Origin: a virus
Direction: 5' to 3' (one strand)
Length of the DNA stretch: 44,266 nucleotides
IMG/VR virus record: IMGVR_UViG_3300022200_000097
Coordinates: 1 to 44,266 of that record
In this document: piece by piece, positions 1 to 44,266 of the stretch
Position numbering within the stretch: the stretch's first letter is position 1
Layout of the letters: every line of letters starts with the position of its first letter
Translations under genes and position numbers: made by a program
The notes under the pieces: generated by a model
The model's input: only the letters and a program-made list of their open reading frames with translations
The model's database searches: none
Told to the model about the DNA's origin: nothing

Positions 1-1131
1 AATGAGTGCTTTCTTCTTTTTAGACATGCCACCCTTAGCAGCCGTGGCCGCCTTCTTCGGACCCTCAATCGCTAACTGCGACCGGCCTGCAGCAATGGCA
101 GCAGGACGCTTCGCTTGCGCCTTTGGGCCTTCAATTGCCAACTTTGCTCGACCCGCAGCAGTCGTTGGACGTGCATACGAGAAGGTTGGAACTCCACGCT
201 CTTTCACTACATCCTTGCTAGCAGTGCTAGCAGTGGGCGCACCCGGACGAGTCGCAACCGCGCTACCCGGACGCTTCACAAGAGCAGTGCTTGGCTTGCG
301 AGCAGCAAGAGACTTCGGTGGGTCAATGGGCTTCTTGGCAGCAGGTTTCTTCACTGTTGGCTTTTTGGCCACAGCGGGAGTTTCCTTCTTCGCAGCCGGG
401 GCCGGATTCTTCTTCACCGCAGGCTTCTTCACTGCAGGAGTCGCTTTCGGTGCAACAGGTGTTGAGTCTCCCCCACCACGAACCGCTGCACGGTTAGCCT
501 CCAACTTACTTTCCCACTTCTTCAAAGCAGTTTTGAAAGCAGAGTCCGTCTTAAAACCTGAACGCACAGGCTTCGGGCCTGTCGTTAACGCCTTGCCGGA
601 CTTGCCACGCATAGCCTGACGGATACCGTCATCAGCAGAGAACTTCGCTGCAGCCCTTGCAGGGCGAGGATCAGGCATCATTAATCTTTTAATGTCTGCC
701 AGTTCCATGTCGCGTGCTTCAGCCTTGGAAAGTTTTGCTGCAGGCTTTGCAGGCTTGACGGTGCGAGGCTTAGTTAAAGCCGCAGTGTTCTTCGCTTCTT
801 TTTTAGCAATTCCTTTTGCCGCATCTGCCGCTAGTTTGCGACCAGCAGCGCCAATAATTGACCCAATCGGGTTTCCAGCCTCTGCAAGTTTAACTTTACG
901 TGTTACTCCACCAGCATTCGTTGTAATCTCAGCGCTGTCACCAAAAAGAAACTTCATTGCTTCCACTACTTGACTAGCAAGAACACCCTCACCGGGACCA
1001 GCGCCTCCGCCGCGTACAAATTTAGGAGTACTGCGCTGTGCAGGTTTACGCGCTTTAAGTGACTCAGGGATTGGCTTACGTGCCCTCAATGATGCAGGGA
1101 TGCTTTTCTTCTTCGAGTTGCTGGGCAGCAT
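1..1131 (-). CDS. Lysine/alanine/proline-rich histone H1-like virion protein, C-terminus cut by window edge
   Basis: The start codon ATG is at 1131 and the frame is still open at base 1, giving 377 residues; the missing C-terminus is seen in the second copy (40352-41842). The protein is very basic, with runs of KKP/AKKP units in the middle like the tails of histone H1 or phage DNA-condensing proteins. This copy has 11 more residues in the KKP tract than the second copy. It lies in the virion operon three genes after the portal. A role in packaged-DNA binding or as an ejected protein is inference; no enzymatic motif is visible. Confidence 0.75.
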   Translation of the reverse strand, partial: MLPSNSKKKSIPASLRARKPIPESLKARKPAQRSTPKFVRGGGAGPGEGVLASQVVEAMKFLFGDSAEITTNAGGVTRKVKLAEAGNPIGSIIGAAGRKLAADAAKGIAKKEAKNTAALTKPRTVKPAKPAAKLSKAEARDMELADIKRLMMPDPRPARAAAKFSADDGIRQAMRGKSGKALTTGPKPVRSGFKTDSAFKTALKKWESKLEANRAAVRGGGDSTPVAPKATPAVKKPAVKKNPAPAAKKETPAVAKKPTVKKPAAKKPIDPPKSLAARKPSTALVKRPGSAVATRPGAPTASTASKDVVKERGVPTFSYARPTTAAGRAKLAIEGPKAQAKRPAAIAAGRSQLAIEGPKKAATAAKGGMSKKKKALI

Positions 1132-1145
1132 TATTATTCCTAGAT

Positions 1146-1463
1146 TTAGAAGCCGCTTCGGCGGCTGATCATTGGTTTGCGTGCGGGCTTGCCACCGTTT
1201 TTATTGGGGCGAGGCATTGGTTTGATCTTGCCTTTTATCGGGGTGTTTATCATTCCCGGTTTACTCGGCATCAGTTTTCTTGCAGGCTTCGGTGCAGGTT
1301 TACGCCCATCAGTAATAGGCTTTATTTTTCGTTCTGGTAATTGCTTAATCTCTTTTTGAATTAGAGGTGACGGCTTCTTCTTTGCGGGACGACCCTCTGT
1401 AATGTATTTAGTTCCCGTGACAGCCGTCTTCTTTGGCCGAGGGGACTTCATTGAGGCAGCCAC
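1146..1463 (-). CDS. Small basic Lys/Pro-rich protein
   Basis: This protein of 105 residues starts at GTG 1463, which overlaps the stop of the preceding gene by one base (TAGTG). It is rich in KPARK/KPAPK motifs, with no hydrophobic core visible, so it is probably extended and nucleic-acid binding. It shares KPxRKxMP-like motifs with its larger downstream neighbour and may be related to it. Residues about 33-50 differ strongly between the two copies in this window while both ends are conserved. Function is not recognised. Confidence 0.7.
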   Translation of the reverse strand: MAASMKSPRPKKTAVTGTKYITEGRPAKKKPSPLIQKEIKQLPERKIKPITDGRKPAPKPARKLMPSKPGMINTPIKGKIKPMPRPNKNGGKPARKPMISRRSGF

Positions 1464-1615
1464 TACTTAGTCTTCTTAGAATTCCCAGCGACAGGCTTAG
1501 GGGTCATGCCGTACTTCACCATGCCACCGCCGACAACAGCGCCACCGTTTTTCTTACCTTCAATGTTTGTAGCGACTGGTGCTTTCACCATTCCGCCTTG
1601 CTTTCCCATACCCAT
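1463..1615 (-). CDS. Small Gly/Met/Lys-rich protein
   Basis: This is a 50-residue protein starting MGMGKQGGMVKAP, with ATG at 1615 preceded by AGGAG-like bases and the portal stop 11 bases upstream. It ends in a basic KKTK tail. It is conserved in the second copy with essentially the same protein, which supports it being a gene. No family is recognised; its place right after the portal suggests a virion component. Confidence 0.65.
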   Translation of the reverse strand: MGMGKQGGMVKAPVATNIEGKKNGGAVVGGGMVKYGMTPKPVAGNSKKTK

Positions 1616-1626
1616 GATTTCTCCTT

Positions 1627-3414
1627 TTATGCGGGGATATTTCTAACCACACGGTTAGACATACTTGCTTGACCTGAACTTGTTAAACCTGCGAGTAACT
1701 GCTGCATTGCTGGCGGACCTTGCGGTAACGCCTCATTAGTAACCGGACCTGAAGGAATCTCTTCCTGTGCAGGTTCAGCGGGTGCTTCTTCACCAAACAT
1801 TGACGGTGCAGCATCTGGTGCTTTCGGTTCCGGTTTCGGTGCTGGTGTGAACGCTTTCGCTACAGCATCCTCCAACGGGACACCCTTTTTACGTTGATCA
1901 ATCACCATCGCCATTTGTTCAATAATCTTTGTGGGATCTTGACCCTGCGAAACCATTTGAGGAATAGCAGCGGCAAGGGATGAAACACCAGCCTTAAGAG
2001 AGTCACGCATCTCTTCCATGTCAATGGCGCGTTCTTCCTCAGCCGCATTCATAGTGACAGGGAGGTTATTGCGAACGAAACGGCGGGAAAGAAGTTTGTC
2101 ACCGCGAGCCTGCAAAGCAAACACGAGTGCACGGTTGGGATCCAAACCAGCCATCAAACCGTATTGCACATTAATGCCATGCTCACCATTAATGTCTTTA
2201 TCGGGTGTGTACGCCAACTTGAACGGCACACCGTTCGCTGAACCGGACACTTCCTTTTTCACACCGGGGAAGAAAGCCTCATCCGTTGCCAACGCTATTG
2301 AGATCGCTTCGCCGAGTGCTTCACCCATGATTGATTGGGCGGTTTTAATTTGCCCATCGAAACCAGCCTGCAACGCTTTAATGCCCTGCCCAGTAACAAT
2401 GGAACCCTCAGATTGCCCGGCGCGAGACTCAGGGAAACGAGTACCTAAACGAAGTTCCTCAGACAAAACATTGTTCTCAGCGAATGCATACTGGGGAACA
2501 TCTAAAGGAACCCTACGGATTTTCTCCGGTGAGTTCGAACGGATCACAGCATCAGGACCAACGGTTAACTGGGTGACATCTTGCGGTAACGCAAGTGGAG
2601 CCTCAACAGATTTTTGTACAGCATCCATCGTGAGCAACGCCAGTTTCGCTTTAGCGGCGAAAACAAACAACACATCATCGAACTGGCCTCGAGCCTCAGA
2701 GTCAAGAGAGTTACGTTGAGCGATAGCCACAGGTACACGCCCAAGAATGTTCCGTGTTTGCGCCAGCAATAAGCCGTCACGTTCAGGAATGAACATCACA
2801 GAGGTCTTAGCGTCATACCAACGCACAATCTCAAGAATCTGGTTAGTGTCCTGTGAACCAAACATGCCACGTTTCATAATTTTGTCAGCAAGTTCGGGGA
2901 ACATAGCGGCAATATCACCGGCTTTACGGCGGAACGTGTGGCAATACAAGTTCACTGTGCCGAAACGGTCACGATCAAAATATGCACCCATCGAGTTCTC
3001 CACATGAATATGTGGACGATTCTCTTTGAAATGAGGCTCGACACGGAACGGGGTAAAACCGTACGTTGCGTACTGGTCCGCAGCGCGAATCATCTCAATA
3101 CCCAAATGGGATGAAGCAATATAAAAGTTTGCTATCTTCGTGCGCTTATCAGCGCGAGTCCGTGAAGACTCCTCAAGGGCCGAGTCACCCGAGGCACTAA
3201 TAGTGGGAATAACACCGGCTTGCTCCGCGAAGTCACGGGCAACAACATCAATAAGATTAGCAACAATAGGACGTGACCATTTCTGGGTAGGGAAAATACC
3301 CGGAAAAACTTGATCAGCATGCCCAGCGCGAACCAAAGACACTTCACGCATACGCTCATCGCGTTCACTGAAACGCTTCTTCAGCGCATCAAACTTGTGT
3401 GCGTAATCGCTCAC
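1627..3414 (-). CDS. Portal protein
   Basis: This protein of 595 residues most likely starts at GTG 3414 (VSDYAHKFD), preceded by GAGGAGT at a good distance. The frame is open further upstream but that stretch overlaps the terminase end. Size, position directly after the terminase and the overall look (mixed alpha/beta body, Pro/Ala/Glu-rich C-terminal tail of about 60 residues) fit the dodecameric portal through which DNA is packaged and ejected. The C-terminal tail carries several differences between the two copies. No catalytic motif is expected. The call rests on context and general resemblance rather than a diagnostic motif. Confidence 0.8.
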   Translation of the reverse strand: MSDYAHKFDALKKRFSERDERMREVSLVRAGHADQVFPGIFPTQKWSRPIVANLIDVVARDFAEQAGVIPTISASGDSALEESSRTRADKRTKIANFYIASSHLGIEMIRAADQYATYGFTPFRVEPHFKENRPHIHVENSMGAYFDRDRFGTVNLYCHTFRRKAGDIAAMFPELADKIMKRGMFGSQDTNQILEIVRWYDAKTSVMFIPERDGLLLAQTRNILGRVPVAIAQRNSLDSEARGQFDDVLFVFAAKAKLALLTMDAVQKSVEAPLALPQDVTQLTVGPDAVIRSNSPEKIRRVPLDVPQYAFAENNVLSEELRLGTRFPESRAGQSEGSIVTGQGIKALQAGFDGQIKTAQSIMGEALGEAISIALATDEAFFPGVKKEVSGSANGVPFKLAYTPDKDINGEHGINVQYGLMAGLDPNRALVFALQARGDKLLSRRFVRNNLPVTMNAAEEERAIDMEEMRDSLKAGVSSLAAAIPQMVSQGQDPTKIIEQMAMVIDQRKKGVPLEDAVAKAFTPAPKPEPKAPDAAPSMFGEEAPAEPAQEEIPSGPVTNEALPQGPPAMQQLLAGLTSSGQASMSNRVVRNIPA

Positions 3415-3427
3415 CCGAACAACTCCT

Positions 3428-5335
3428 CTATAAACGCACCAAACCCGAAGCGTCTTGTGTAAGATCGTCAAGGTTGATCACGTACTGGTTATCAATGTCT
3501 TGTTGCGAAGTAAACTCATTAGTCATGAAGTTCCGTGTATTCGTTACACGGAAAAGAATGTCCCGCGCAACAATCTCGCAAAACCACAACGCCATCACAG
3601 CGTCCATTTTTAATTTAGAACCACGCACACCCGGCTGCCACGTAATTAACTGCTCCACAAGTTTCTTAATATGACCATTAGTGGAAGCATCCGGCAACTC
3701 AATCAAGTTATCGCCAGCATGTTTCTGCGTTAACTGGTCCTTACGGTTCTCCTTAGACCCAAACAAAGTCGCTAGGGAGGCAACACCGTACTCAGGATCC
3801 TGCTTATTAGAACCAGTGAAATGAGGGCGGTACGCGATACCGCGCGAATTCAAATGATTCCTGATCTCCTCATCTTTTGTGAGGAACAACTGAAACGCAT
3901 TCGACTCCACAATGACCGTGTTCGGGCGATACCGTTCCGCCCAGTCCTTCAACAAAGTACGAATAGCGGCAGGGGTAGGGGCCGTCATCACGTGAACATC
4001 CATCACGTAACGCTTCTGTGTACGCCTATCAATAGCGTACGCCACCGCAGCCGTATCCCCGCTCATAGCAGGGTCTAAACCAATCACCCTGTAGAAGTGT
4101 GAACTATCCACAGGGTGACCAGTCGCACCCGCAATGAGTGGACCCGGTTTTCTCATACCGTTAATTGCGCCTCTGACGCACACCGGGTCAAAAATAGCAT
4201 TCTCAGACACGTCATGATTCTGGTAAACCAACGACCATTTACCCGGACCAACCTCGTTACGCACCTTATCCATGCGCCGACCAGACCAACGCTCAAACAT
4301 GCCATCATCATCTGGCTTATCCGTTTCACTCAACGGCTGCTCAGACTTCGGCCACAACGTAACCCAATCCTCAGTTTTCTCTGCATACTCCAACACTGCA
4401 GGCATACCAAGATACGTCCACGGAACCAAAGCATCCGTGTAATGATCCTCATTACGTAACTCGCGATACAAATCCACAGCAGACACCCGAGTACCCACCA
4501 CCAACAGTTGGCCGCCATCAGGAGGCAAACGAGAAGCAACCTCCTGCCGAACCCAATCCTGCTGCTTAGGCCACTCAGAAGCATTCGACAACGTCACAAC
4601 GTCATCCAAAACAATCAACGAAGCACGAGACCCGTAAATCTGGCCGCCCATACCCAGAGCCTCAATCGTAGGATCCTTCTCGCCAGAGTCCCGCGTATCG
4701 CCACCCAAATAAACCTTGTTCGAAGACCACTGATCCGCCGTAGCCTTATAGCCATCAGCTGGACCAAACGCCATCTGCATGTCCGCATAGCGAGGATGAG
4801 TCAACCGCTGCTTAATCGCATACAAATACTTCTTAGCCTGCTCCAGTGTCTTCGACACAATCAGCACGTTAATGTTCGGATCCTTCACAATCCGGTACGT
4901 AACATAATTAATCGTTACCGTCATCGACTTCGCGTGGTTCGGAGGCACGTTAACAAGTAGCCGCGACAAACCAGCACTACCCGGCTCGTAAATCATTTCA
5001 TCCCGCAACCAAGAAGGAGACCTGCCCTCAAGCAGGTCGACAACATTCTGCATGTGAGGGAACACCCGAGCATGCAGGTACTTCTCAGAAAACTCCGCAA
5101 AAGAAATATCCGCATTACGGGCAGATAAGGCAGCGTCAGTCTGCCGCAATCTGACCGAATCAATCGTAACCGCGAAATCAGGGGCTACCCGCCGTTGAGT
5201 GTCATACCACGAGCGCGAGCGGCCAATGACGCGAAGCGCATCAGTAATAGTCCGCCCTTGACGCACCGCGTCAACCAACTCGCGACGAGCCTCATCAGGC
5301 GCAACACGCCTGCGAGGTGAGTCCGCACGAGCCAC
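3428..5335 (-). CDS. terL: Terminase large subunit with N-terminal HTH-like extension
   Basis: This is the DNA-packaging motor, 635 residues. The ATPase half has a Walker-A-like PPNHAKSM at about 131-138, Walker B LIVLDD at 240-245 and a coupling motif LLVVGTR at about 277-283. The nuclease half has RNase-H-fold acidic residues D421 (IGLDPAMSGD), E477 (VIVESNA) and D578 (KMDAVMAL). The first 65 residues look like the helix-turn-helix of small terminases (TITDALRVIGRSRSWYD followed by APDFAVTIDS), and no separate small-subunit gene is seen nearby. GTG 5335 is chosen because GAGGAGT precedes it. It is the first gene of the leftward virion operon. Confidence 0.95.
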   Translation of the reverse strand: MARADSPRRRVAPDEARRELVDAVRQGRTITDALRVIGRSRSWYDTQRRVAPDFAVTIDSVRLRQTDAALSARNADISFAEFSEKYLHARVFPHMQNVVDLLEGRSPSWLRDEMIYEPGSAGLSRLLVNVPPNHAKSMTVTINYVTYRIVKDPNINVLIVSKTLEQAKKYLYAIKQRLTHPRYADMQMAFGPADGYKATADQWSSNKVYLGGDTRDSGEKDPTIEALGMGGQIYGSRASLIVLDDVVTLSNASEWPKQQDWVRQEVASRLPPDGGQLLVVGTRVSAVDLYRELRNEDHYTDALVPWTYLGMPAVLEYAEKTEDWVTLWPKSEQPLSETDKPDDDGMFERWSGRRMDKVRNEVGPGKWSLVYQNHDVSENAIFDPVCVRGAINGMRKPGPLIAGATGHPVDSSHFYRVIGLDPAMSGDTAAVAYAIDRRTQKRYVMDVHVMTAPTPAAIRTLLKDWAERYRPNTVIVESNAFQLFLTKDEEIRNHLNSRGIAYRPHFTGSNKQDPEYGVASLATLFGSKENRKDQLTQKHAGDNLIELPDASTNGHIKKLVEQLITWQPGVRGSKLKMDAVMALWFCEIVARDILFRVTNTRNFMTNEFTSQQDIDNQYVINLDDLTQDASGLVRL

Positions 5336-9400: not shown

Positions 9401-9588
9401 TTGAGAGTCTTCTGATCCTGCTGGGATTCATGGCGATGATTGCCCTCGTGTCCTACTACATGGGCAAGACAGCAGGCCAAGCACAGAGTGAAAAGCAATA
9501 CAACTACACACGAATGCAACAAGCCAGACGCTTGCTGCATGCAGAACGCAACACAACACACCCTACAGATAAGGAAAAAGGAAGATGA
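9397..9588 (+). CDS. Small membrane-anchored protein
   Basis: The protein has 63 residues, ATG 9397 in an ATGA overlap. Residues 3-22 form a hydrophobic helix (LLILLGFMAMIALVSYYM), followed by a basic, soluble, helical tail. Likely an N-anchored inner-membrane protein. Role unknown. Confidence 0.6.
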   Translation: MIESLLILLGFMAMIALVSYYMGKTAGQAQSEKQYNYTRMQQARRLLHAERNTTHPTDKEKGR

Positions 9589-10538
9589 ATACATTGACAG
9601 CAGCACAGACAGTAGCCCCTGCACGTAGCCCGTTTGGGCTGGCAATGCAGGACGTATCAAGTTCCACAACATTGCAGGATGCAATGCGAGAAGCATCAAT
9701 CGACTTCGAGGTGCAACGCTGGGATCTCACGGCAAGCAGTGAGACTGGCATCAGCCCCGTCACTAACCATGTGGGGCTGGTACGTACCGACAACAACAAC
9801 GTGATCAGTGTTGTGGGTAATAACTATGGTGTGATTCAAAACCATGAAGCATTCGCACCATTGGACTACCTGATGCGTGAAGGCTTCATCCAGTCCATTG
9901 ATTCTGCTGGGTCACTGGACAATGGCGCGAAGGTGTTCATGCTGGCTAACTTGGCGGCATCATCACGTATCCAAGGTGATGCACATACACGCCAGTTGCT
10001 CATCGCCACCACTCATGATGGCAGTGGTGCTACCACTGCACGTGGATGGTTGCACCGCATCCATTGCACGAACCAGATCCCTGCCATCTTCAGTAAGAAG
10101 GGAGCCGTTCAACGTATACGTCACACGTCACGTGCCCAGAATTATTTGCAAGACTTCCGTCATGCAGTGATCGCAAGCATGCATTCCATTGGCATCATGG
10201 AGGATCGCATCAACACACTGAACGACATCGACACGACAGCGTGGCAGGTCGAGCAGTTCATTGATCGCATGTTCCCCAAGCCCATCGCTGCAATGGATGT
10301 CAGCAAGTACCGTGCTGCTAGCACGGTGAATGACCGTCAGCGTGGATACCTTGCCGGGTTGATCCATGACGCACCAACGAACGAGAACATTCGCGGTAAG
10401 GCTTCAGCGTTGTTCGCTGCGGCCGTGGAATACAGCGACTACTACTCACGTGGCAAGCGCAGCGAGCGCATCCTGCGTGGTCGTGACGTTGAATTTAAGA
10501 CACGTGCGCTGCATCTTGCTGAGTTAGTGACAGCCTGA
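9585..10538 (+). CDS. DUF932 (phage/plasmid-like) protein
   Basis: This 317-residue protein matches the DUF932 pattern widespread on phages and plasmids: a segment linking an early domain to NYGVIQNHEAF, then GAKVFMLANL, a TTHDGSGA segment and IHCTNQIPA, and a helical C-terminal half. Start ATG 9585 is in an ATGA overlap. The biochemical role of the family is not known to me; it is often near replication or anti-defence genes. It is the largest gene of the early rightward block. Confidence 0.85.
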   Translation: MNTLTAAQTVAPARSPFGLAMQDVSSSTTLQDAMREASIDFEVQRWDLTASSETGISPVTNHVGLVRTDNNNVISVVGNNYGVIQNHEAFAPLDYLMREGFIQSIDSAGSLDNGAKVFMLANLAASSRIQGDAHTRQLLIATTHDGSGATTARGWLHRIHCTNQIPAIFSKKGAVQRIRHTSRAQNYLQDFRHAVIASMHSIGIMEDRINTLNDIDTTAWQVEQFIDRMFPKPIAAMDVSKYRAASTVNDRQRGYLAGLIHDAPTNENIRGKASALFAAAVEYSDYYSRGKRSERILRGRDVEFKTRALHLAELVTA

Positions 10539-11583: not shown

Positions 11584-12332
11584 GAGTACTGCTCCCCTTC
11601 GAATACGAAACTCTTGTTCACGATGGGTATGGGTACAGGTACAACGGTCTTGCCATGCTCATAGATCACACCGAACCCTTGCTGCCAGTTCGCTATGCCT
11701 TTCGTGTACTTGGCTTCCTTCAAGTCCATCAGGTTGCCTACTTCGAATCCCCATAGTGTGCGTGTCAACGTGCCACCCACACTGGTGGAGTAGGGCTGTA
11801 AACCTAATCGATGTGAGTGTCCACACACCACCGACTTACCGGTCTTCCTTGTTAGCCCCGCTGCTGTTTGTCCTGCCACTTGGGATGCTCCGGCCTCATC
11901 ACCGTGCAGTGCAACCCATCCGGGTGCAATGCCATCCCAACCATGCTTGTGAAACTTGATGCTGAGTTGCGGTAAACGCAGGAAGTTCTCAAGTTCTAAC
12001 TCTGGCAACCCAAGGAATCCCGGTGCGTTACGCATGACTTTATGGAACAGTCTGTCTGTGTGATTCGAACGAATCATGTGCTGCACTTGCAAGTTGTGCA
12101 ACACTTGCACTGTAGTGTCCCGATCCTTACCGATGCTGCGCTCGTACTCGAGCGGAGTACCCGCACTCCAACGACTGATCGTTTGCATATCCATTTCATC
12201 GCCGATACTTACCACTACATCGTTGTCGGTCTTGTGATCAGCAATGCATTGAGCGACCGCATCCACTGCCTTCTTGTCATGGTAAGGAACTTGAAGGTCA
12301 CTGATGATCCACTTGCGGGACATTGGGGTCAT
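11577..12332 (-). CDS. Calcineurin-like metallophosphoesterase
   Basis: This protein of 251 residues has the metal-binding blocks of the family in order: ISDLQ (D12), SIGDEMD (44-48), SNHTD (N90, H91), LHGDE (H143) and VCGHSH (171-174). The usual DxH of block I is DLQ here, so one metal ligand appears replaced. Phage members are often near primase and nuclease genes and may act on nucleic-acid ends or cyclic nucleotides; the substrate is unknown. ATG 12332 overlaps the preceding stop as ATGA. Confidence 0.88.
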   Translation of the reverse strand: MTPMSRKWIISDLQVPYHDKKAVDAVAQCIADHKTDNDVVVSIGDEMDMQTISRWSAGTPLEYERSIGKDRDTTVQVLHNLQVQHMIRSNHTDRLFHKVMRNAPGFLGLPELELENFLRLPQLSIKFHKHGWDGIAPGWVALHGDEAGASQVAGQTAAGLTRKTGKSVVCGHSHRLGLQPYSTSVGGTLTRTLWGFEVGNLMDLKEAKYTKGIANWQQGFGVIYEHGKTVVPVPIPIVNKSFVFEGEQYSW

Positions 12333-12613
12333 GGTCTACTCACAATCTCTGCACCTAATGCTGCATAGCCAGCCATATCAATCCACGAATCAATGTAGTC
12401 AGGGTTAACTGCAGCCCTCACCATTTTCATGGACGCTAACAACAGGCACACTTCGTGTGCGCTGACTTCCGTATCAAGGATGACACTCCACACTCGAGCG
12501 ATCCGATCATGCGCAACGTGCGCATCCCCGTACATGTCTGCACGGTCACCGTTAATGAGGGTATTGGCATTGGCAAGAACAGTCTCGCGAGTCAACAAGT
12601 CGGAGCCTTTCAT
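12329..12613 (-). CDS. DUF6378-like phage protein
   Basis: The protein has 94 residues. The pattern NGDRADMYGDAHVAHDRIARVWSVIL, then a CLLLASMKMVRA helix and IDMAGYAALGAE, is that of a small helical phage family I associate with DUF6378. It begins and ends in ATGA overlaps. No activity is known for the family to me; presence among replication genes is usual. Confidence 0.75.
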   Translation of the reverse strand: MKGSDLLTRETVLANANTLINGDRADMYGDAHVAHDRIARVWSVILDTEVSAHEVCLLLASMKMVRAAVNPDYIDSWIDMAGYAALGAEIVSRP

Positions 12614-13254
12614 CGAGTTGCCTTCACTAAGTCTGTGAAGTGCTGCGCTCCGTAATTGAGGATCGTACTGTTCACATCTTCGCCGTAGGGAAGCGACACG
12701 CGTATCCCATTAGGGATTTCTTCAGCAAGTTTCTTTGCCAGATCCTGCCCCGGATTCGTGCCGTCTTCCTTCTTGTCATTGTCGGTAACGATGATGACTT
12801 TGCCTACCCCATCAAGGCATCGACCGAAGATGCTACGCCAACCATTAGTGCCACCGATAGCAATCGCTGGGTGACCTGCGAGTGTTGCGGCTATCGCATC
12901 AAGTTCACCTTCCACGATGCACACTTCTTCGATAGCATCGATCAACGATTGCACATTAAAGATGTGCATCTTCTGCCCTGCAGGTGCAAGATACTTCTTG
13001 CCATCACCTTGGATCCTGCGGAACTTAAACCCAACAACACCTGATGGTGTTGAGTATGGGATGGACAGCATGCCAAGGAACTTGTCATCATGTCCGGGTG
13101 CTGGTGTTCGCACGTAACCCAACTGGAATTGTTCCGCACCATCCATCAACCCACGTTCAGTCAAGTAATCCTCAGCGGGTGAACCCTTCAAGCACTGGTG
13201 ATACATCTCCGATGCGATGGTGCGCATCTCCATCATCTTCATGTTTGGTTTCAT
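12610..13254 (-). CDS. TOPRIM primase/catalytic domain protein
   Basis: This protein of 214 residues is the catalytic half of a DnaG-like primase. The TOPRIM residues are E115 in CIVEGELDA and D158/D160 in IIVTDNDKK; an N-terminal GFKFRRIQGDGKKYLAP segment matches the region preceding TOPRIM in phage primases. The zinc finger that primases need is not here but in a separate gene at 14191-14535, with two unrelated genes between. Coupled to both neighbours by ATGA overlaps. Confidence 0.88.
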   Translation of the reverse strand: MKPNMKMMEMRTIASEMYHQCLKGSPAEDYLTERGLMDGAEQFQLGYVRTPAPGHDDKFLGMLSIPYSTPSGVVGFKFRRIQGDGKKYLAPAGQKMHIFNVQSLIDAIEEVCIVEGELDAIAATLAGHPAIAIGGTNGWRSIFGRCLDGVGKVIIVTDNDKKEDGTNPGQDLAKKLAEEIPNGIRVSLPYGEDVNSTILNYGAQHFTDLVKATR

Positions 13255-13646
13255 CGCTTCTTCTCCTCAAAGCATGCGAGCATGCCGGGATTCCAACGGG
13301 TAGACCAATGCCATTTGCCATTGCCCCAATCCCATGTCCGCCAGAACACTGCATCCTGAATAAACTTCGGGACTTTACTGGGACGTACGCCAACTAAGTG
13401 GTGGTAGCCAGCACGTGGGGCGTAAAGATCCCACGTAGTCTGGATGAATGAGTAAGCACCCGCGCCACCGGGGCCATCGGAACGGTAATTCCCACGGGAC
13501 TCCCGGTAAATAATGCATTTGCGGATCTCTTCTTTCTTCGGCATGTAGTAGGCAGTGCCCTTGTATAAGGAGTCAGGGATGTTGCTTGTGTCAATGTTTA
13601 CTGGGGTAAACATCAGTACAGAACTCAGTACCAACGCGGTGATCAT
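13251..13646 (-). CDS. Secreted transglycosylase/Rpf-like muralytic enzyme
   Basis: The protein has 131 residues with a hydrophobic N-terminus (MITALVLSSVLMFTP) that looks like a short signal peptide or anchor. The body fits the lysozyme-like fold of resuscitation-promoting factors: catalytic-type glutamate E49 in IYRESRGNY, then AGAYSFIQTTWDLYA. It would cleave peptidoglycan glycan strands. It is unusual to find it in the replication operon, far from the endolysin at 22131-22640. ATGA overlaps on both sides tie it to the protease and primase genes. Confidence 0.8.
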   Translation of the reverse strand: MITALVLSSVLMFTPVNIDTSNIPDSLYKGTAYYMPKKEEIRKCIIYRESRGNYRSDGPGGAGAYSFIQTTWDLYAPRAGYHHLVGVRPSKVPKFIQDAVFWRTWDWGNGKWHWSTRWNPGMLACFEEKKR

Positions 13647-14194
13647 TTCTTCTCCACGCTTACTTCATCGAAGGTGTAGTTGAATGCGGCACTGAACGGG
13701 TCAAGGGTTTCCGCAGCCCTCATGGCCTGCAAATGGTCAGCGCCAGTGATCAACGCACCCAGTGCGTACGCACCGCCTGTACCTATGCCGTATAGCCCAT
13801 GCATGCGGTTCATTACCGTGCCATCGGATTCGATTTGGAACACGAACCCTCGAACGATGATGATCATTTGGAAATCAACACCATCACTACCTAACTCGTA
13901 ACCTTCACGCCGCAATGCACGCTTCAAGTCAGGTACGAATGTGGTGATTAGCCAGTAGTAGGACCACTCTTCATCCACCTGCACGCTGGCTTCCTCGTCA
14001 GGCTGTGGTGGTTCCCAGTCGTATTGAATGTAGTCGCACAAGCGACCATTTCCTGCGGTTCCGTATGCCAAACTAAAGTTGCGGCAAATCTTTCGCGCTG
14101 TCTTACTGACAAAAGATTCAGACTCTGTTGAGACTTGGTAGTCCGCATACATGACGGCCCTACCCTCTTCTTGGATACCGATGATTGTTGTCAT
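13643..14194 (-). CDS. Proteasome beta/HslV-like Ntn protease
   Basis: The protein has 183 residues. After removal of Met1, Thr would be residue 1 (MTTIIGIQEE, compare HslV MTTIVSV), with Asp at mature position 17 (MYADYQ) as in the catalytic Asp17, a Lys before Ile (TARKI) near the Lys33 place, TAGNG, and GIGTGGAYALGAL matching HslV's IGSGGPYA. No propeptide is present with the ATG 14194 start, which has GGAGAGG before it; an upstream TTG is less likely. It could be a self-compartmentalised peptidase or modify the host proteasome; neither is shown. Confidence 0.85.
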   Translation of the reverse strand: MTTIIGIQEEGRAVMYADYQVSTESESFVSKTARKICRNFSLAYGTAGNGRLCDYIQYDWEPPQPDEEASVQVDEEWSYYWLITTFVPDLKRALRREGYELGSDGVDFQMIIIVRGFVFQIESDGTVMNRMHGLYGIGTGGAYALGALITGADHLQAMRAAETLDPFSAAFNYTFDEVSVEKK

Positions 14195-14535
14195 GCGCCT
14201 CTCCTCAACTTTGGTGGAACCCAACGACCACTGCCCGTACTTCGTGTACGTGCAGCACGATGCGTTGCCTTCATCTCTTTACCGATGCGTTCAGTGATGA
14301 ACGCGAGTGCTTCCCTGTATTCGAGTCGCTCCCGCAACATCACGATGTTCACTGCGGTTCCACCAGCGCCACATGCGTGGCAATGCCAGAGTCCTTTACC
14401 CACATTCATTGATGCGGATGCAACACGTTCTTCATGCACGGGGCATCGCGTGTTGCGTTCACCGCTACCAGTAACGGGTAAGTCGTAATGGTTTAACACT
14501 GCAACCATTACCTCTTCGAGTTGATCCGTGTCCAT
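14191..14535 (-). CDS. CHC2-type primase zinc-finger protein
   Basis: This protein of 114 residues has the ligands C31 and H34 (RCPVHEE) and C52/C55 (WHCHACGAGG), the CHC2 zinc ribbon that primases use to recognise template. The rest is helical with a basic C-terminal tail (RAARTRSTGSG). It lacks any catalytic core, which is supplied by the separate TOPRIM gene at 12610-13254. ATG 14535 lies in a TGATG overlap; an adjacent GTG is the alternative. Confidence 0.88.
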   Translation of the reverse strand: MDTDQLEEVMVAVLNHYDLPVTGSGERNTRCPVHEERVASASMNVGKGLWHCHACGAGGTAVNIVMLRERLEYREALAFITERIGKEMKATHRAARTRSTGSGRWVPPKLRRGA

Positions 14536-14897
14536 CACACCAACCCCTCCTCACGGAGAAGATCAATCAACGTGCCGATAGTGATGGTCACTCGACCATC
14601 AACCGTTCCCTTCTGTCGTGTCTTTGTGACCACGAGTGGGAAGGTTGCTTGCTTGTATTTCTTTTCATAATTGTCAGCCTCAACATCGGCTTGACGTAGG
14701 AAGTCACTCATGTTCGCGGCCTTCACGTTCTTTGCTTCGATCACAAGAACACGACCTGACTTCAAGGCGATAGACACATCACCAATGTCGTTGACTCCGG
14801 CTCGTGGTAGACGGCGGGCATGCAGCCCGCTGTCATTAAAGAAAGACTCAAGGTCAATCTCCCAACGACTACCCTTCGCCTTATTAGCCGCGCTCAC
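14535..14897 (-). CDS. Holliday-junction resolvase-like PD-(D/E)xK nuclease
   Basis: The protein has 120 residues. The start KGSRWEIDLESFF (conserved Glu), an AGVNDIGDVSI block with Asp, and VLVIEAKN (ExK) are the archaeal Hjc/phage resolvase pattern. It would cut branched DNA during recombination or before packaging. GTG 14897 overlaps the WhiB gene stop (GTGA). Confidence 0.85.
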   Translation of the reverse strand: MSAANKAKGSRWEIDLESFFNDSGLHARRLPRAGVNDIGDVSIALKSGRVLVIEAKNVKAANMSDFLRQADVEADNYEKKYKQATFPLVVTKTRQKGTVDGRVTITIGTLIDLLREEGLV

Positions 14898-15166
14898 AGT
14901 CGCGCACCAGCCGTGAACACTGCCTCAGGTGTAATCAAACTAATGTTGAGGCGGGAACGCACAGTGCGTCTCTCTGATGGTGTGGAGCCAGCCCAAATAC
15001 CGTGGCGTTCATGATGCAAAGCCCACTGGTAGCAATCAGTTAGCACTGGGCATGCCGCACATATCTTTCGGATGGTGGTCATGTCCGCTGGTTCATCGAT
15101 CACTGGGTAGAAAATTTCTGTCGGTATCCCAACACATGCTGCGTCTGTATAGTCCGGGTATTTCAT
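14894..15166 (-). CDS. WhiB-family Fe-S transcription factor
   Basis: The protein has 90 residues from ATG 15166, preferred because it makes an ATGA overlap and gives AGGAG correct spacing; an in-frame ATG lies two codons earlier. The four cluster ligands follow the Wbl spacing: C11, then C36-x2-C39-x5-C45, and the GIWAG turn follows, with a basic tail (SERRTVRSRLN) for DNA. WhiB proteins bind the host primary sigma factor and are confined to actinobacteria and their phages; phage WhiB can act as a dominant-negative regulator. Strong host indicator. Confidence 0.95.
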   Translation of the reverse strand: MKYPDYTDAACVGIPTEIFYPVIDEPADMTTIRKICAACPVLTDCYQWALHHERHGIWAGSTPSERRTVRSRLNISLITPEAVFTAGARL

Positions 15167-15984
15167 AGCCATTGTCTCCTAGTGTTTGCCATTTCAAGTT
15201 CTTCCTTGTTGTTGAAAAGGCACATGCGACTTGGATCGACAGCAACCCTGATGGGGTTCTCAGCACCGGGATCAGACACGCCATCCCGGTTCTTCACAGC
15301 AGCAACGAGATAGTTATCTCCACTCATCGCCACTGTAAGTATGAGTTCTGGTAGTTGACTCACCTTCCCCATTAATGCTTTGCGTGCAGCAGGGAACTCA
15401 GGTTTAGAATCATTCTCGCTAACGTGGTGCAGTACCACGACTGCGCTTTCAGTTTCACGCGCAAGTGAATGCAACGCTGACATAGCGTCACGCATGGCAG
15501 TCCACTCGTTGTCATGTGCGGCAGCAAGGTTCAGGAGATTGTCAACGACAATCAGATCAGGGGGGCAGCCGAAGAGTTCAACATATGCTTCTGTCTCTTC
15601 GTAAATATCATCCAATGTTGGATGAGGGTTAGGTTCGATACGTATTCTTTGTGAGAGTTCAATGAGTTCATCTTCAATCAAATATATTTCTTCTGTTTCA
15701 CGCATCGCTTTGACTTCGTCAACCGTGCGGTCAAGCAGTATCGCACTGGCACGGTTAACAATGGTTCCTTGATCAGAGTCAGCGTTGAAGTAAAGAACTC
15801 TCGTGTTCGATTTGATTGCGTACCAAAGACTGAGCATCGTCTTACCCCCACCGGGTTGACCGGCGATGACATGAAGTTGCCCCCGCCGAAACTTGATGGT
15901 CGCTGAGGAGAAAGCAGGCAGGATCTCTGGGAGATCCTGACCTGCCTCGCTCGTGGAGCGAACCACTTGTAGGAGTGACCGCAT
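15163..15984 (-). CDS. RecA/DnaB-like hexameric ATPase (replicative helicase candidate)
   Basis: The protein has 273 residues with Walker A GQPGGGKT (42-49), Walker B DLIVVDNLL (143-150) and the motif VVVLHHVSE with paired histidines typical of RepA/DnaB-type helicases. It lacks the N-terminal primase-binding domain of DnaB, like many small phage helicase-type ATPases. With primase genes in the same operon it is the best candidate for the replication helicase. Confidence 0.85.
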   Translation of the reverse strand: MRSLLQVVRSTSEAGQDLPEILPAFSSATIKFRRGQLHVIAGQPGGGKTMLSLWYAIKSNTRVLYFNADSDQGTIVNRASAILLDRTVDEVKAMRETEEIYLIEDELIELSQRIRIEPNPHPTLDDIYEETEAYVELFGCPPDLIVVDNLLNLAAAHDNEWTAMRDAMSALHSLARETESAVVVLHHVSENDSKPEFPAARKALMGKVSQLPELILTVAMSGDNYLVAAVKNRDGVSDPGAENPIRVAVDPSRMCLFNNKEELEMANTRRQWL

Positions 15985-18704: not shown

Positions 18705-18716
18705 CTTTAGTTGTTG

Positions 18717-18745
18717 TTGCAATGCAACTTCTTTTCCACTAGTCT
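18717..18745 (+). promoter_or_regulatory. Integrase promoter, leaderless type
   Basis: TTGCAA (18717-18722), 17-bp spacer, TAGTCT (18740-18745), seven bases to ATG 18753. No ribosome binding site lies before that ATG, so transcript start and start codon would coincide. Confidence 0.55.
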
Positions 18746-18752
18746 TTGCAAC

Positions 18753-19742
18753 ATGAGAGATAAAAAAATCGGGGACGTTATACCTGACTACTTGCAATGG
18801 AGGAAACGGCAAGGGTTCGCGCACAACACGACCCGCAACGACGAGTCCGCATTAGGCTTCCTTACACGCACCCTGTCACCAGAAAGATTAGTGTCGGATA
18901 TCTACCCATCGGACATCGCTGATGTCCTCGAAGCCTGCCTTGATAAGCGGCAACCATCATCAGTGAACGCAGTTCACGCCACCCTGTCAGGGTTCTTCCA
19001 ATGGTGTCGGGCAAACCGAATCATTGGCCCTGACCACGACCCCATGCTGGGTGTTCGCTACCGGAAAGTGCCCGTTAAAGAACGCCAGCGGCTACGACTC
19101 GACGAGTTCGATTCGTTCCTTGACGTGGCCCCTGACCCACGTCATCGCATCATGTCAGCCCTAGGTTTATTCCTGTTCCTTCGCTCCAGCGAAGCAGTGG
19201 CCCTGCGTGTCAAGGACGTAGATCTCATCGGTGGAACTATCGCCGTAACCATCCAGAAAACAAACGACTTCGACCGCATGCCATTGAGCAGTGAACTGGA
19301 CGGGGAGTTGCGGATATGGCTTACCCATTACCAAAGCGTCATGGGGAATCTTGATCCGAATTGGAGGCTTGTCCCACCCGTGGCCCGTGGCTTCAGGGAC
19401 AGTAACTGCTACAACCCAACCGGCAAAATCAGCAAACCAGAAGACCTCATCAAACGCTGTCTCGACGCTTACGGTTGGGAAGACACCCATTGGGAAGGCA
19501 TGCATTGCCTTCGCCGATCAGGGGCACGAGCGTGGTTCGACTCCCTCGTGGAGATGGGAACCGACGGCGCGTTACGACTAGTACAAACGCAACTTCATCA
19601 CCGAAGCGTTACAATGACGGAGAGGTATTTAGGTTTGACGGGGGATCGGATAAACCGGGATAAGCGTTTGAAAGGTCAAGCGATGTTCCCTATCTCAACT
19701 CAAAAAAATGTCATTTCACTCAAGAGAGTGGCTGAGAGGTGA
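18753..19742 (+). CDS. int: Tyrosine recombinase (integrase)
   Basis: The protein has 329 residues. The N-terminal core-binding domain (residues 1-105) is followed by the catalytic domain with R144 (LFLFLRSSEAVAL), K169 (TIQKTND), H251-x2-R254 (MHCLRRSG), a histidine of LHH at 282-283 and the nucleophile Y292 (MTERYLGL). All catalytic residues appear present, so it should be active. ATG 18753 is chosen over an upstream start because of the promoter position. It would integrate the phage at an attB; I could not identify attP or a tRNA fragment nearby. Confidence 0.93.
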   Translation: MRDKKIGDVIPDYLQWRKRQGFAHNTTRNDESALGFLTRTLSPERLVSDIYPSDIADVLEACLDKRQPSSVNAVHATLSGFFQWCRANRIIGPDHDPMLGVRYRKVPVKERQRLRLDEFDSFLDVAPDPRHRIMSALGLFLFLRSSEAVALRVKDVDLIGGTIAVTIQKTNDFDRMPLSSELDGELRIWLTHYQSVMGNLDPNWRLVPPVARGFRDSNCYNPTGKISKPEDLIKRCLDAYGWEDTHWEGMHCLRRSGARAWFDSLVEMGTDGALRLVQTQLHHRSVTMTERYLGLTGDRINRDKRLKGQAMFPISTQKNVISLKRVAER

Positions 19743-29921: not shown

Positions 29922-31085
29922 TTAGATGCTTGATTCCACCGTAAGCACGTAACGTGCTTCGGGACGGTAGACGTTCCATCCACCGAGGAACTTCCAACCA
30001 ACGGAACGGTAACGAGCCAGTTTGTCTACAACTGGACCAATCACTGTCTTTGGTTCGTAAGTCACAGCCTCCATCAGAGCCTGCTTTCCAAGAAGGATCA
30101 CTTTGTGATCCAAGGAGGAAGCAGTACCCACAGGGGAAACTGCAGCGGAGGCGACGTTAGGTGCCGTCTTCGCGTACGAGAACGTGTCAGCAGTCTTCGC
30201 GGTGATCACGAATGATCCGTTGAATGTTGCATCAACACCAGCAACAGTGACAGTCTCGCCAACTTCAAAACCGTGACCGGTTGAAGTGAGAGTAGCCACG
30301 TTAGAGGTCAGTGCCTTGTTAGATACTGAACGTCCAGCGCCAGCCATCTGCTCGACACGAGGAGACTCAATGAACTTAACACCTTCATAGATGCCAACTT
30401 CACCAGTCCACATGTTGCCAACACCGGCTTCGGTGTAAGTGTGAGGCATTTGCCACACGTTCGCACCACTACCAGCAGCCTCCGTACGGAGGTCGAAGGA
30501 AACGTCAGGGTGCAGCATTCCGATGTAGAACTGTCCATCGCGAGGCTGAACCTTAGCGCCACGCAGTTTTGCAACAGCGCGGCGAATATCTGAAGCAGTC
30601 AAAGTTGGGGTTGCAGTTGCGGTTTTATCCACACCATTAACAACAACTTCATCAGCAGGAGTAATACCGTTAGTGCGACCAACCGCAGGGTTTACCAGTT
30701 TGCGGTAAACCTGATAGTCAAGCGAATCCAACTGGTTGTACGCCAAAGTATCTGCAATAGCAGGATCAATGTTTGACAGGGATTCCAAAGCGAGACGCTC
30801 AGTGCGCTCGATTGCATTACCCCACTCGTCAACAGTGATCGATACCTTGTTGGTGTTCTTCATTGAAACAGCGTCAACATCTGAAACCTCATTGAGGGTA
30901 GTTGTGACACGGTCAATGTCATTGTGCAACTGCACAACGATTGTTCCACCGGGATTAGTTACATCCGCAGGACGCTTATCAGCGAACTTGCGGAACATTG
31001 GTTCCGAACGAAGATTGAACTCTACGAGTTTATCGTAAGCAGTTTGAATCAGGTTCGGAACGGAGGAGCGACTAGAAAGAGCCAT
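29922..31085 (-). CDS. Major capsid protein, N4-gp56-like, with inserted Ig-like domain
   Basis: The protein has 387 residues. The helical N-terminus (SVPNLIQTAYDKLVEFNLRSEPMF), DEWGNAIERTERLALES and PRDGQFYIGMLHPDVSFDLR are typical of the N4-gp56 branch of HK97-fold capsid proteins. Residues 258-321 (ALTSNVATLTSTGHGF... TFNGSFVIT... FSYAKTAPNVAS) form an extra beta domain common in phage decoration segments. ATG 31085 has AGGAAG upstream. It forms the icosahedral shell. Confidence 0.9.
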   Translation of the reverse strand: MALSSRSSVPNLIQTAYDKLVEFNLRSEPMFRKFADKRPADVTNPGGTIVVQLHNDIDRVTTTLNEVSDVDAVSMKNTNKVSITVDEWGNAIERTERLALESLSNIDPAIADTLAYNQLDSLDYQVYRKLVNPAVGRTNGITPADEVVVNGVDKTATATPTLTASDIRRAVAKLRGAKVQPRDGQFYIGMLHPDVSFDLRTEAAGSGANVWQMPHTYTEAGVGNMWTGEVGIYEGVKFIESPRVEQMAGAGRSVSNKALTSNVATLTSTGHGFEVGETVTVAGVDATFNGSFVITAKTADTFSYAKTAPNVASAAVSPVGTASSLDHKVILLGKQALMEAVTYEPKTVIGPVVDKLARYRSVGWKFLGGWNVYRPEARYVLTVESSI

Positions 31086-31118: not shown

Positions 31119-31598
31119 TTAACCTCTGAGCATGGAGAGTAATTCTTCAGGCGTTTGCGCCTGCTCCATTCGATGTTGCATGTCTAACCCGACCTCTGGA
31201 TCAAAACTTCCATCCTCCAGATCAGCCATCAACTCAGAGGCTTGAAGAGCATCCGCATCAATGCCGTAGCCTGAATCAGTTGCCTCTTCTTGGACAGAGC
31301 CAGTAGCGAACGCGTCACCGTATTCCTCCAGCCACGCTGCCAGTTCGTCCTCATCAGCAATGTCATCGGGAACAAACGCTGCGATGCGAGGATTCAAACC
31401 CCACTCGCTTAATGTTTCCGCGACACTGTTTTGATAAGCAACTTCCTGATAGTCGATAAGCAACTCGTCTTTTTCTTTGAGTGCCTTGTTCATTGCGTTG
31501 ATTTGCTTACGCAACTTCTTAACCAGATCAGTGCCGGACAGTTCCGAATCATCGACTTCGAGATCGAAGTCTTCACCGTCATATTCGTATTGACTCAT
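31119..31598 (-). CDS. Capsid scaffolding-like protein
   Basis: The protein has 159 residues from ATG 31598. It is very acidic, with a coiled-coil middle (LVKKLRKQINAMNKALKEKDELL) and a helical C-terminal end (QTPEELLSMLRG). Size, charge, coiled coil and place just before the capsid gene are those of podovirus scaffolds. No protease gene is seen nearby. Confidence 0.75.
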   Translation of the reverse strand: MSQYEYDGEDFDLEVDDSELSGTDLVKKLRKQINAMNKALKEKDELLIDYQEVAYQNSVAETLSEWGLNPRIAAFVPDDIADEDELAAWLEEYGDAFATGSVQEEATDSGYGIDADALQASELMADLEDGSFDPEVGLDMQHRMEQAQTPEELLSMLRG

Positions 31599-31616
31599 TT
31601 TCCATACTCCCTTGAT

Positions 31617-31726
31617 CAAAACCCTTACGGGTTGCACTACCCTCACGCCCAACAAGGGGTAGTTGGGCTATGGATGTAGCGACTATCGGACTTGATACGC
31701 TCAACAGGGCCGATCGATCCGTTGAG
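31617..31726 (-). promoter_or_regulatory. Three hairpins before the scaffold and capsid genes
   Basis: In this 137-base gap I see AACCC-TTAC-GGGTT (31620-31633) with a T run on the - strand, GCCCAAC/GTTGGGC with loop AAGGGGTA (31647-31668), and CTCAAC/GTTGAG (31700-31726). They may end transcripts from upstream genes, protect a processed 5' end, or control capsid expression. No convincing promoter was found. Confidence 0.55.
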
Positions 31727-33951: not shown

Positions 33952-34741
33952 CAATACCCTCCCCAACAATCTGCTCAACAATATTTGGATTACTTATCGC
34001 ATCATCAAGAATCTTCATGAAATTAATACCAGCGAACCGTTCCGCATAACCCTCCTGTGAACGCGCATACTCTTGCGCGAAACGAGTCGGATCAAAAGTT
34101 CCCGTAGTCGTAGTACTTGACGTACTACTACCCTTACCATCGGAGTAACCATTGGTTCTACTGACCGTGGGATTCTTTTGCTGCTGCTCATTCAAAGCCT
34201 TCTGGAAATCGAGCGCCTCATCCTTAGTTCCCGTACGACCCAGTTCACTTCGGAACGTGGCATCCATGATGGAACCAGCCTGAGATGCACTCGACAAATT
34301 ACGCTGCGTATTCGTTGAATTAATGGGTCCACCACTACCCCCACCACCCTGACGCTTCGCATAGTCAGCGGCGACTTCGGGGTTCTGGGAACGAACACCA
34401 AGGAACTGTTCCCAACTGCGCTCACCACTACTAGTGTCAAACGCGGCAATCTCAAGGGCATCCTGAAAACTACTGAAGCCATTAGCGTCAACAAGTTTTT
34501 CTAATCGGTTATAAAGATTAGGATTGTTAGCGCGAGTGTTATTTATTTCAGCGAGAATGACATCGATAGGAACCTGCTGCAAACCATTCTCACCAATGAC
34601 GGAGACAGTGGCTGCACCAGCAGCCGCACCCGAAGGATTCAAAACAATCGTTCCATTACTAGACACGTTCGCTTGCGGATTATTCGCTGCATAAACCAAA
34701 GGGTTCTTAGTCAAATACGGAGGAGGCGCATTAGTACTCAA
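33935..34741 (-). CDS. Probable virion protein with low-complexity linker
   Basis: The protein has 268 residues. It most likely starts at TTG 34741, overlapping the giant gene's stop by 11 bases; no ATG fits. It has a Gly-rich stretch (GGGGSGG) and a Ser/Thr linker (SSTSSTTTTGTFDPT) separating helical parts. The C-terminal segment (TRFAQEYARSQEGYAERFAG) is helical. Function inferred only from position. Confidence 0.6.
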   Translation of the reverse strand: MSTNAPPPYLTKNPLVYAANNPQANVSSNGTIVLNPSGAAAGAATVSVIGENGLQQVPIDVILAEINNTRANNPNLYNRLEKLVDANGFSSFQDALEIAAFDTSSGERSWEQFLGVRSQNPEVAADYAKRQGGGGSGGPINSTNTQRNLSSASQAGSIMDATFRSELGRTGTKDEALDFQKALNEQQQKNPTVSRTNGYSDGKGSSTSSTTTTGTFDPTRFAQEYARSQEGYAERFAGINFMKILDDAISNPNIVEQIVGEGIGGQAN

Positions 34742-41842: not shown

Positions 41843-41856
41843 TATTATTCCTAGAT

Positions 41857-42174
41857 TTAGAAGCCGCTTCGGCGGCTGATCATTGGTTTACGTGCAGGCT
41901 TGCCACCGGTTTTACTGGGGCGAGGCATTGGTTTGATCTTGTCTTTCATTGGCATGTCCACCATTCCCGCTTTACCCGGCATCAATTTTCTTGCAGGTTT
42001 CGGTGCAGGTTTACGTCCCTCAGCAATCGACTTTCTTGCAGGCTTCGGCAAAAGTTTTATAGGTTTTTGGAGAACTGTCGACGGCTTCTTCTTTGCAGGA
42101 CGACCCTCTGTAATGTATTTAGTTCCCGTGACAGCCGTCTTCTTTGGCCGAGGGGACTTCATTGAGGCTGCCAC
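41857..42174 (-). CDS. Small basic Lys/Pro-rich protein (second copy)
   Basis: The protein has 105 residues with the same ends as the copy at 1146-1463, but the middle is different (STVLQKPIKLLPKPARKSIAEG here). Same GTG start in a TAGTG overlap. The length is kept in spite of the changes, indicating selection on the protein. Confidence 0.7.
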   Translation of the reverse strand: MAASMKSPRPKKTAVTGTKYITEGRPAKKKPSTVLQKPIKLLPKPARKSIAEGRKPAPKPARKLMPGKAGMVDMPMKDKIKPMPRPSKTGGKPARKPMISRRSGF

Positions 42175-42326
42175 TACTTAGTCTTCTTAGAATTCCCAGC
42201 GACAGGCTTAGGGGTCATGCCGTACTTCACCATGCCACCGCCAACAACAGCGCCACCGTTTTTCTTACCTTCAATGTTTGTAGCGACTGGTGCTTTCACC
42301 ATTCCGCCTTGCTTTCCCATACCCAT
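42174..42326 (-). CDS. Small Gly/Met/Lys-rich protein (second copy)
   Basis: The protein has 50 residues, with the same sequence by eye as that at 1463-1615; the few base changes I see are silent. It supports this short frame as a real gene. Confidence 0.65.
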   Translation of the reverse strand: MGMGKQGGMVKAPVATNIEGKKNGGAVVGGGMVKYGMTPKPVAGNSKKTK

Positions 42327-42337
42327 GATTTCTCCTT

Positions 42338-44125: not shown

Positions 44126-44138
44126 CCGAACAACTCCT

Positions 44139-44266
44139 TTATAAACGCACCAAACCCGAAGCGTCTTGTGTAAGATCGTCAAGGTTGATCACGTACTGGT
44201 TATCAATGTCTTGTTGCGAAGTAAACTCATTAGTCATGAAGTTCCGTGTATTCGTTACACGGAAAA
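44139..44266 (-). CDS. terL: Terminase large subunit, C-terminal end (second copy, cut by window edge)
   Basis: The last 42 residues of the terminase are visible, ending DLTQDASGLVRL as in the copy at 3428. The sequence runs off the window. Confidence 0.9.
   Translation of the reverse strand, partial: FRVTNTRNFMTNEFTSQQDIDNQYVINLDDLTQDASGLVRL

Follow-up and report, generated by a model that had tools for sequence, protein, structure and literature searches.

What does a phage do with a proteasome-like protease when it carries no unfoldase gene to feed it? The question is raised by a 183-residue protein encoded in the virus record IMGVR_UViG_3300022200_000097, of which the whole stretch of 44,266 bases was analysed and is called the window throughout. 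Proteasome-like proteins of phages occur widely in databases, without tested function in the literature surveyed, and our literature search found no study on the function of the phage HslV/proteasome-like family. From the comparisons described below we arrive at a reading on which we stand evenly balanced, namely that the protein is an active, unfoldase-independent N-terminal-threonine peptidase on the BPH/AAH side, working in the infected cell and not in capsid maturation.

Results and Discussion

Identification of the gene and its surroundings

The open reading frame of the original prediction stands as to its coordinates and lies on the minus strand (Table 1), the plus-strand reading being interrupted by stops. 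All motifs named for it are present in the translation, with MTT at residues 1–3, Asp18, TARKI at 32–36, TAGNG at 46–50 and IGTGGAYA at 137–144, and among the relatives the Thr, Asp, Lys and GxG elements are conserved, TARKI only in its Lys. In profile searches, the protein matches PHROG 1040 ("peptidase HslV family") with E = 1.9e-19 over residues 1–169, thus near full length, the NCBIfam HslV models with 3e-7 and 4.4e-7, and Pfam PF00227 with E = 0.001 at 19.2 bits, under the cut-off of 22.4 bits. A profile built from 20 relatives finds HslV chains (5.6e-11) and BPH chains (2.3e-9) in the PDB. Judged from these matches, the proteasome/HslV-type identity of the protein is beyond chance; PHROG 1040 is its family, already annotated in phages with a function label given by homology only, and the protease is its one sole match within the window. 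Membership of HslV itself, as first proposed, is refuted by the equivalog cut-offs of the NCBIfam models (29.8 bits against 157.75, and 30.3 against 137), and the protein sits apart from HslV proper on a separate long branch in the tree. Comparison with the relative L003 gives dN 0.038 and dS 0.347, which indicates that the gene is under purifying selection.

Table 1. Positions in the window of the protease gene, its key sites and the genes discussed with it
Feature	Position	Strand	Match or conservation
Proteasome-like N-terminal-threonine protease gene, 183 aa, PHROG 1040	13643–14194 including stop (coding 13646–14194)	−	
Met-Thr-Thr start, Thr2 the putative N-terminal nucleophile	14186–14194	−	Thr in 152/153 relatives
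Asp18 codon (Asp17 of the mature protein)	14141–14143	−	153/153 distinct relatives
Lys35 codon (aligns with catalytic Lys33)	14090–14092	−	153/153 distinct relatives
Acidic pore-loop region, residues 97–107, helix 2 to next strand, net charge −4	13874–13906	−	
CHC2 zinc-ribbon half of primase, directly upstream, stop overlaps protease ATG	14191–14538	−	PF01807 50 bits, PHROG
131-aa downstream gene, start overlaps protease stop	13251–13646	−	no family match
Toprim half of primase	12610–13254	−	Pfam Toprim_3/Toprim_2, PHROG DNA primase
WhiB gene	14894–15172	−	PF02467 55.8 bits
Portal gene	1627–3471	−	strain-variant copy at 42338–44182
Major capsid protein	29922–31085	−	
Putative scaffolding protein, upstream of capsid gene	31119–31655	−	PHROG 7813

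The gene is part of a minus-strand replication block that comprises, upstream, an exonuclease, a DnaB-like helicase, WhiB, a Holliday junction resolvase and CHC2, and that continues after the protease with the 131-aa gene, Toprim, a 94-aa gene, a metallophosphoesterase and a sigma factor. The WhiB gene points to an actinobacterial host, which is likely for this phage and bears out the actinobacterial link drawn at the outset.

Several neighbours deserve a remark of their own. The 131-aa product has a signal-peptide-like start and matches nothing in Pfam or PHROG, a homologue adjoins the protease in one related record (L191), and one stretch recalls, by eye, transglycosylase/Rpf domains, to which we presume a likeness. 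The 94-aa gene (12329–12613) matches PHROGs labelled phosphofructokinase (E 1e-28), a label that looks doubtful for so short a protein. Between the portal and scaffold genes lies a gene for a 1681-aa protein (34731–39776) for which Pfam returns nothing and PHROG a single family without assigned function; the corresponding 1764-aa protein of Planktophila phage E7 lacks any PHROG match and is highly variable among phages with near-identical portals. The plus strand carries a tyrosine integrase gene (18711–19742, PF00589), given which the phage, though related to phages isolated as lytic, may be temperate, and a DUF932 protein (9585–10538, PF06067, 103 bits), opposite to the minus-strand gene blocks. 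No tRNA genes were found in the window, and none of three proteins searched against a defence-system library gave a match. The window ends (1–3555 and 40745–44266) are 92.8% identical and encode two portal proteins of 97.6% identity; these near-identical ends most likely reflect an assembly that completed one turn of a permuted genome (about 40.7 kb) and continued into a second strain, and not a portal duplication.

Active site and predicted fold

The active site was counted over 177 rows, reduced to 153 distinct relatives, with 11 rows left out (E. coli HslV, HslV-like and bacterial rows, and L002, which is identical to the window). At the nucleophile position, 152 of the 153 carry Thr and one carries Ser, so that the loss of the Thr nucleophile in relatives, which would have spoken against the original prediction, did not occur. 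Asp17 and Lys33 are each kept in all 153, and the oxyanion Gly47 in 150, the exceptions being two Ser and one Thr. An earlier count over 96 rows, which included one HslV-like row (L013), agrees. The window protein thus has the full set of proteasome-like superfamily features, catalytic Thr1, Asp17, Lys33 and oxyanion Gly47. As Thr or Ser follows directly on the start residue, there is no propeptide, and on established knowledge removal of the start Met would expose the Thr as N-terminal nucleophile.

The AlphaFold (AF2) single-chain model (mean pLDDT 83.7) has the alpha-beta-beta-alpha proteasome fold, with helices at residues 50–59 and 75–96 and strands at 36–39 and 42–48. In a Foldseek search against the PDB, BPH comes out on top (1e-9), HslV next and proteasome beta after it, and all 50 PDB rows listed are BPH, HslV or proteasome chains. 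VIA-align Z-scores run in the same order, with 18.4 for BPH, about 17 for HslV and 16–17 for most beta subunits; a best match to a non-proteasomal Ntn hydrolase, the other outcome that would have counted against the assignment, was thus not seen. With the profile scores, these model matches make the predicted proteasome fold well supported and exclude HslV proper, and the claim of a proteasome/HslV-fold protein with an intact Thr/Asp/Lys site is borne out by predicted fold and conservation together.

Proteins with the proteasome fold can be ligases, as the precedent of connectase shows (PMC8665760), and the window protein could in principle be a specific peptide ligase of that kind and not a general protease. 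Connectase is described in the same source, in the part accessible to us, as carrying a two-helix insertion that separates strands 3 and 4 and as lacking the first helix pair. In our model, strands 36–39 and 42–48 leave no space for such an insertion and both first helices are present, and we regard a ligase as highly improbable.

Pore loop and the search for an unfoldase

The loop leading from helix 2 to the next strand counts 11–17 residues and is net negative, with charges from −1 to −5, in all 20 aligned proteins, against +1 for its counterpart in E. coli HslV. The accessible part of the BPH report (PMC5777263) describes a long acidic loop for BPH and a basic cluster for HslV, gives no known partner unfoldase for BPH, and reports no clear activity on model substrates. 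By sequence, the phage proteins share the pore-loop state of BPH, long and acidic.

A search for AAA_2 unfoldases in the window and 12 related records returned none (13 of 13), in agreement with the earlier statement that the phage itself encodes no unfoldase. Weak matches to AAA (PF00004) were seen in seven of the 13 records, the window not among them, and the match in phage E7 falls inside its DnaB-like helicase gene. This result, with the likely actinobacterial host (WhiB; relatives isolated on Ca. Planktophila), would suit a protease that mixes into the host 20S proteasome or borrows an ATPase of the host (ClpX, ClpC or Mpa, for instance). In sequence and structure, however, the protein is nearer to HslV and BPH than to actinobacterial beta subunits, and we consider such a use of host machinery improbable.

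Two positions of the gene

The closest named relatives of the window protease are found in Planktophila phages E7 (L005) and F5 (L004), at 31–33% identity; both phages were isolated on "Ca. Planktophila" LanE-43, according to the part of the source at hand (PMC10202952). A scan with the F5 protein left 80 viral contigs of 199. Other homologues occur in Arthrobacter, Microbacterium, Tenacibaculum, Vibrio, Moorella and Salicola phages, in a Dishui Lake actinobacterial phage and on rhizobial plasmids, and the five bacterial relatives that came out of a genome scan with A4 include no actinobacterial one. The rhizobial plasmid proteins group with other phage rows in the tree; one proteasome-like protein on a Sinorhizobium plasmid (L200, 3001–3546) is encoded beside rpoN, nifQ and nifS, in a nitrogen-fixation region. 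The match in L013, a wastewater contig named "Listeria phage", resembles a common bacterial HslV and clusters with that of E. coli in the tree, from which the record is probably bacterial DNA.

In the window-type phages and their sister clade the gene occupies two slots. In the sister clade of Planktophila-phage relatives, such as E7, the order is TerL, portal, protease and then head genes, and the protease follows immediately on the portal gene in 82 of 99 protease loci, these being E7, F5 and all 80 contigs of the F5 scan. For 76 of the 82, adjacency was called by an automatic rule (gaps of 8–21 nt); six more were assigned by eye, the portal reading frame being split or cut by the contig end. 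In all 22 window-type loci the protease is flanked by the CHC2 and Toprim halves of the primase (11 from 8/8 loci together with the window, L002 and L003, and 11/11 further loci), and it was not found in the stretches around 80 portal genes of the window's structural relatives. The CHC2-like and Toprim reading frames overlap in E7, so that the primase slot is empty there. In the tree, the portal-slot rows form one clade (100/99) and the primase-slot rows do not; with several long branches, the branch order between the two positions is left unsettled and neither is shown to be older.

The primase slot invites the explanation that the protease shortens or eliminates a replication protein of phage or host and is retained between the primase genes for that purpose, the more so as the position is kept in all 22 loci at protease identities to the window mostly near 32%. 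The sister clade, however, has primase genes with no protease there and carries its protease behind the portal, protease-less phages keep the same primase genes, and operon position alone is weak evidence; this explanation strikes us as quite unlikely.

The portal slot leads in another direction. Directly behind the portal is the usual place of a phage capsid protease, and this position in the sister clade suggests late expression with the head genes, which counts against our favoured reading of a peptidase acting in the cell. A head-maturation protease that cuts the scaffold or another head protein, its gene merely relocated in the window lineage, would account for the portal-adjacent loci and their gene order. 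In other phages, head maturation is done by S78 or ClpP-type proteases. None of either type was found in 14 of 14 records searched, which leaves the protease without such a competitor and, for these types, upholds the earlier remark on the lack of a capsid protease. Its near-universal presence in the family would also fit.

Retention, loss and the head proteins

Retention was sampled through the portal or capsid gene, independently of the protease. Among window-type records longer than 32 kb, the protease is present in 20 of 20 (7/7 sampled by portal and 13/13 by capsid). Portal sampling covered the 38 longer records of 80 loci, fragments for the most part, with the protease in eight and no match in 30, all of the latter below 32 kb; the 13 capsid-sampled records are those of 80 loci that exceed 32 kb and lie outside the portal-sampled search. 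Of 80 portal loci in the sister clade, 66 carry the protease, five break off too early and nine are without it; these nine, out of the 75 loci with enough sequence, have about 4 kb behind the portal. No protease match was found anywhere in those nine records, and three of them (30.5, 37.5 and 39.9 kb) gave no PHROG 1040 match in a search in which eight of eight others did.

The 37.5- and 39.9-kb records map as near-complete genomes with terminase, portal, scaffold, capsid, tail, helicase, both primase genes and a sigma factor, and their proteins are 84–85% (portal), 71% (capsid) and 65% (scaffold) identical to those of E7. The two are alike and may represent one lineage. In the protease-less genomes G044 (L284–L286) and G043 (L287–L288) the replication block runs the other way round with respect to the head genes when compared with E7. 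Whether loss of the protease is strictly tied to the large gene that follows was considered, and the mixed identities across the nine loci refute it, this gene comparing with that of protease-bearing phages at 20–25% in five, at 63–68% in two and without a match in two.

As for the head proteins themselves, invariant positions in the capsid protein begin at residue 11, and in many relatives it measures only 311–326 aa; from this invariance and short length the sequence would seem to offer no room for a cleaved prodomain. Its AlphaFold model reaches a pLDDT of only 34.9, and a PDB sequence search with it gave no match. The scaffold homologue in E7 shows a weak match to the head scaffolding family PHROG 648. 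In Salmonella jumbo phages, moreover, HslV genes (without HslU) are found besides separate prohead protease genes, as far as the accessible part of the source tells (PMC7823757).

Two of these observations, the place of the gene in the replication block here and its clean absence beside a 71% identical capsid protein, speak against the maturation role entertained in the original prediction: although a natural loss does not equal a knockout, on sequence grounds an essential part in capsid maturation is unlikely, which narrows the options for function, and we hold any head-maturation protease to be unlikely, if still worth weighing. As some viruses with very similar shells do without it, the protein is probably a tool inside the infected cell and not a shell-building part. 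Losses amid similar head proteins, the lack of a visible prodomain and the replication-block position together favour a cell-acting peptidase.

Proposed mode of action and implications

The cell-acting peptidase could work as follows. Once the start Met is removed, Thr1 would attack the peptide bond with the assistance of Lys33 and Asp17, and the subunits would close into a self-compartmentalising ring around the active sites, entry to which the acidic pore loop would control in place of an ATPase. In the window phage the protease would be made together with the replication genes. Its substrates in the infected cell would be proteins of the host (or phage) in an unfolded or loosely folded state, and their degradation may serve takeover or turnover. 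We infer activity, ring assembly, timing and substrates alike, the evidence above being computational throughout. A bolder version, in which an unfoldase-free phage proteasome ring is a core takeover enzyme degrading selected host proteins in a family widespread in freshwater contigs, its gene having moved between two slots with the active site unchanged, is put forward with considerable doubt.

New here is the standing of the protease as a core gene in a family of freshwater phages that bears actinobacterial marks and appears to infect common freshwater bacteria; new as well are the two fixed slots of the gene and its natural losses. The proteasome enzyme class has a known specific inhibitor. 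A handle on function is offered by Planktophila phages E7 and F5, which carry the gene and have a cultivated host, with close relatives that are without it (PMC10202952, as far as that source was available).

Comparison with known systems

HslV (E. coli b3932) shares with the window protein the fold, the catalytic residues, the direct Met-Thr start and a GSGG-type motif; it differs in its loop, basic where that of the phage is acidic, and the phage has no HslU gene. Proteasome beta subunits have a propeptide and an alpha partner, whereas the window protein begins directly with Met-Thr and is a single family match. BPH (PDB 5ovs/5ovt/5ovu) is the best structural match, alike in Thr1/Asp17/Lys33, in the long acidic pore loop and in having no partner ATPase known. 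It is a tetradecameric double ring, the window protein being modelled here as a single chain only, and sequence identity is about 20%, with the window protein phage-borne.

Fuchs, Alva and Lupas (2021) describe 22 novel proteasome homologues, including AAH and PPH in phages, that in the accessible part of their survey have no known function and no AAA+ partner (PMC8665760). PPH, the proteasome homologue of phages and their hosts, is a phage-borne proteasome fold like the window protein, of about 140 aa and without helix 2 according to the same part of that source (PMC8665760); at 183 aa the window protein is too long and, with helix 2 present alongside the first, it is not a PPH. The likeness to AAH/group I is closer, with no propeptide, a compact HslV/BPH-like subunit and both phage and alpha-proteobacterial relatives, and, matched by description, the window protease is probably an AAH/group I homologue. 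No actinobacterial phage with AAH is reported in what we could access of the 2021 survey (PMC8665760); if the assignment holds, this gap would be closed by the window phage along with those of Planktophila and Arthrobacter.
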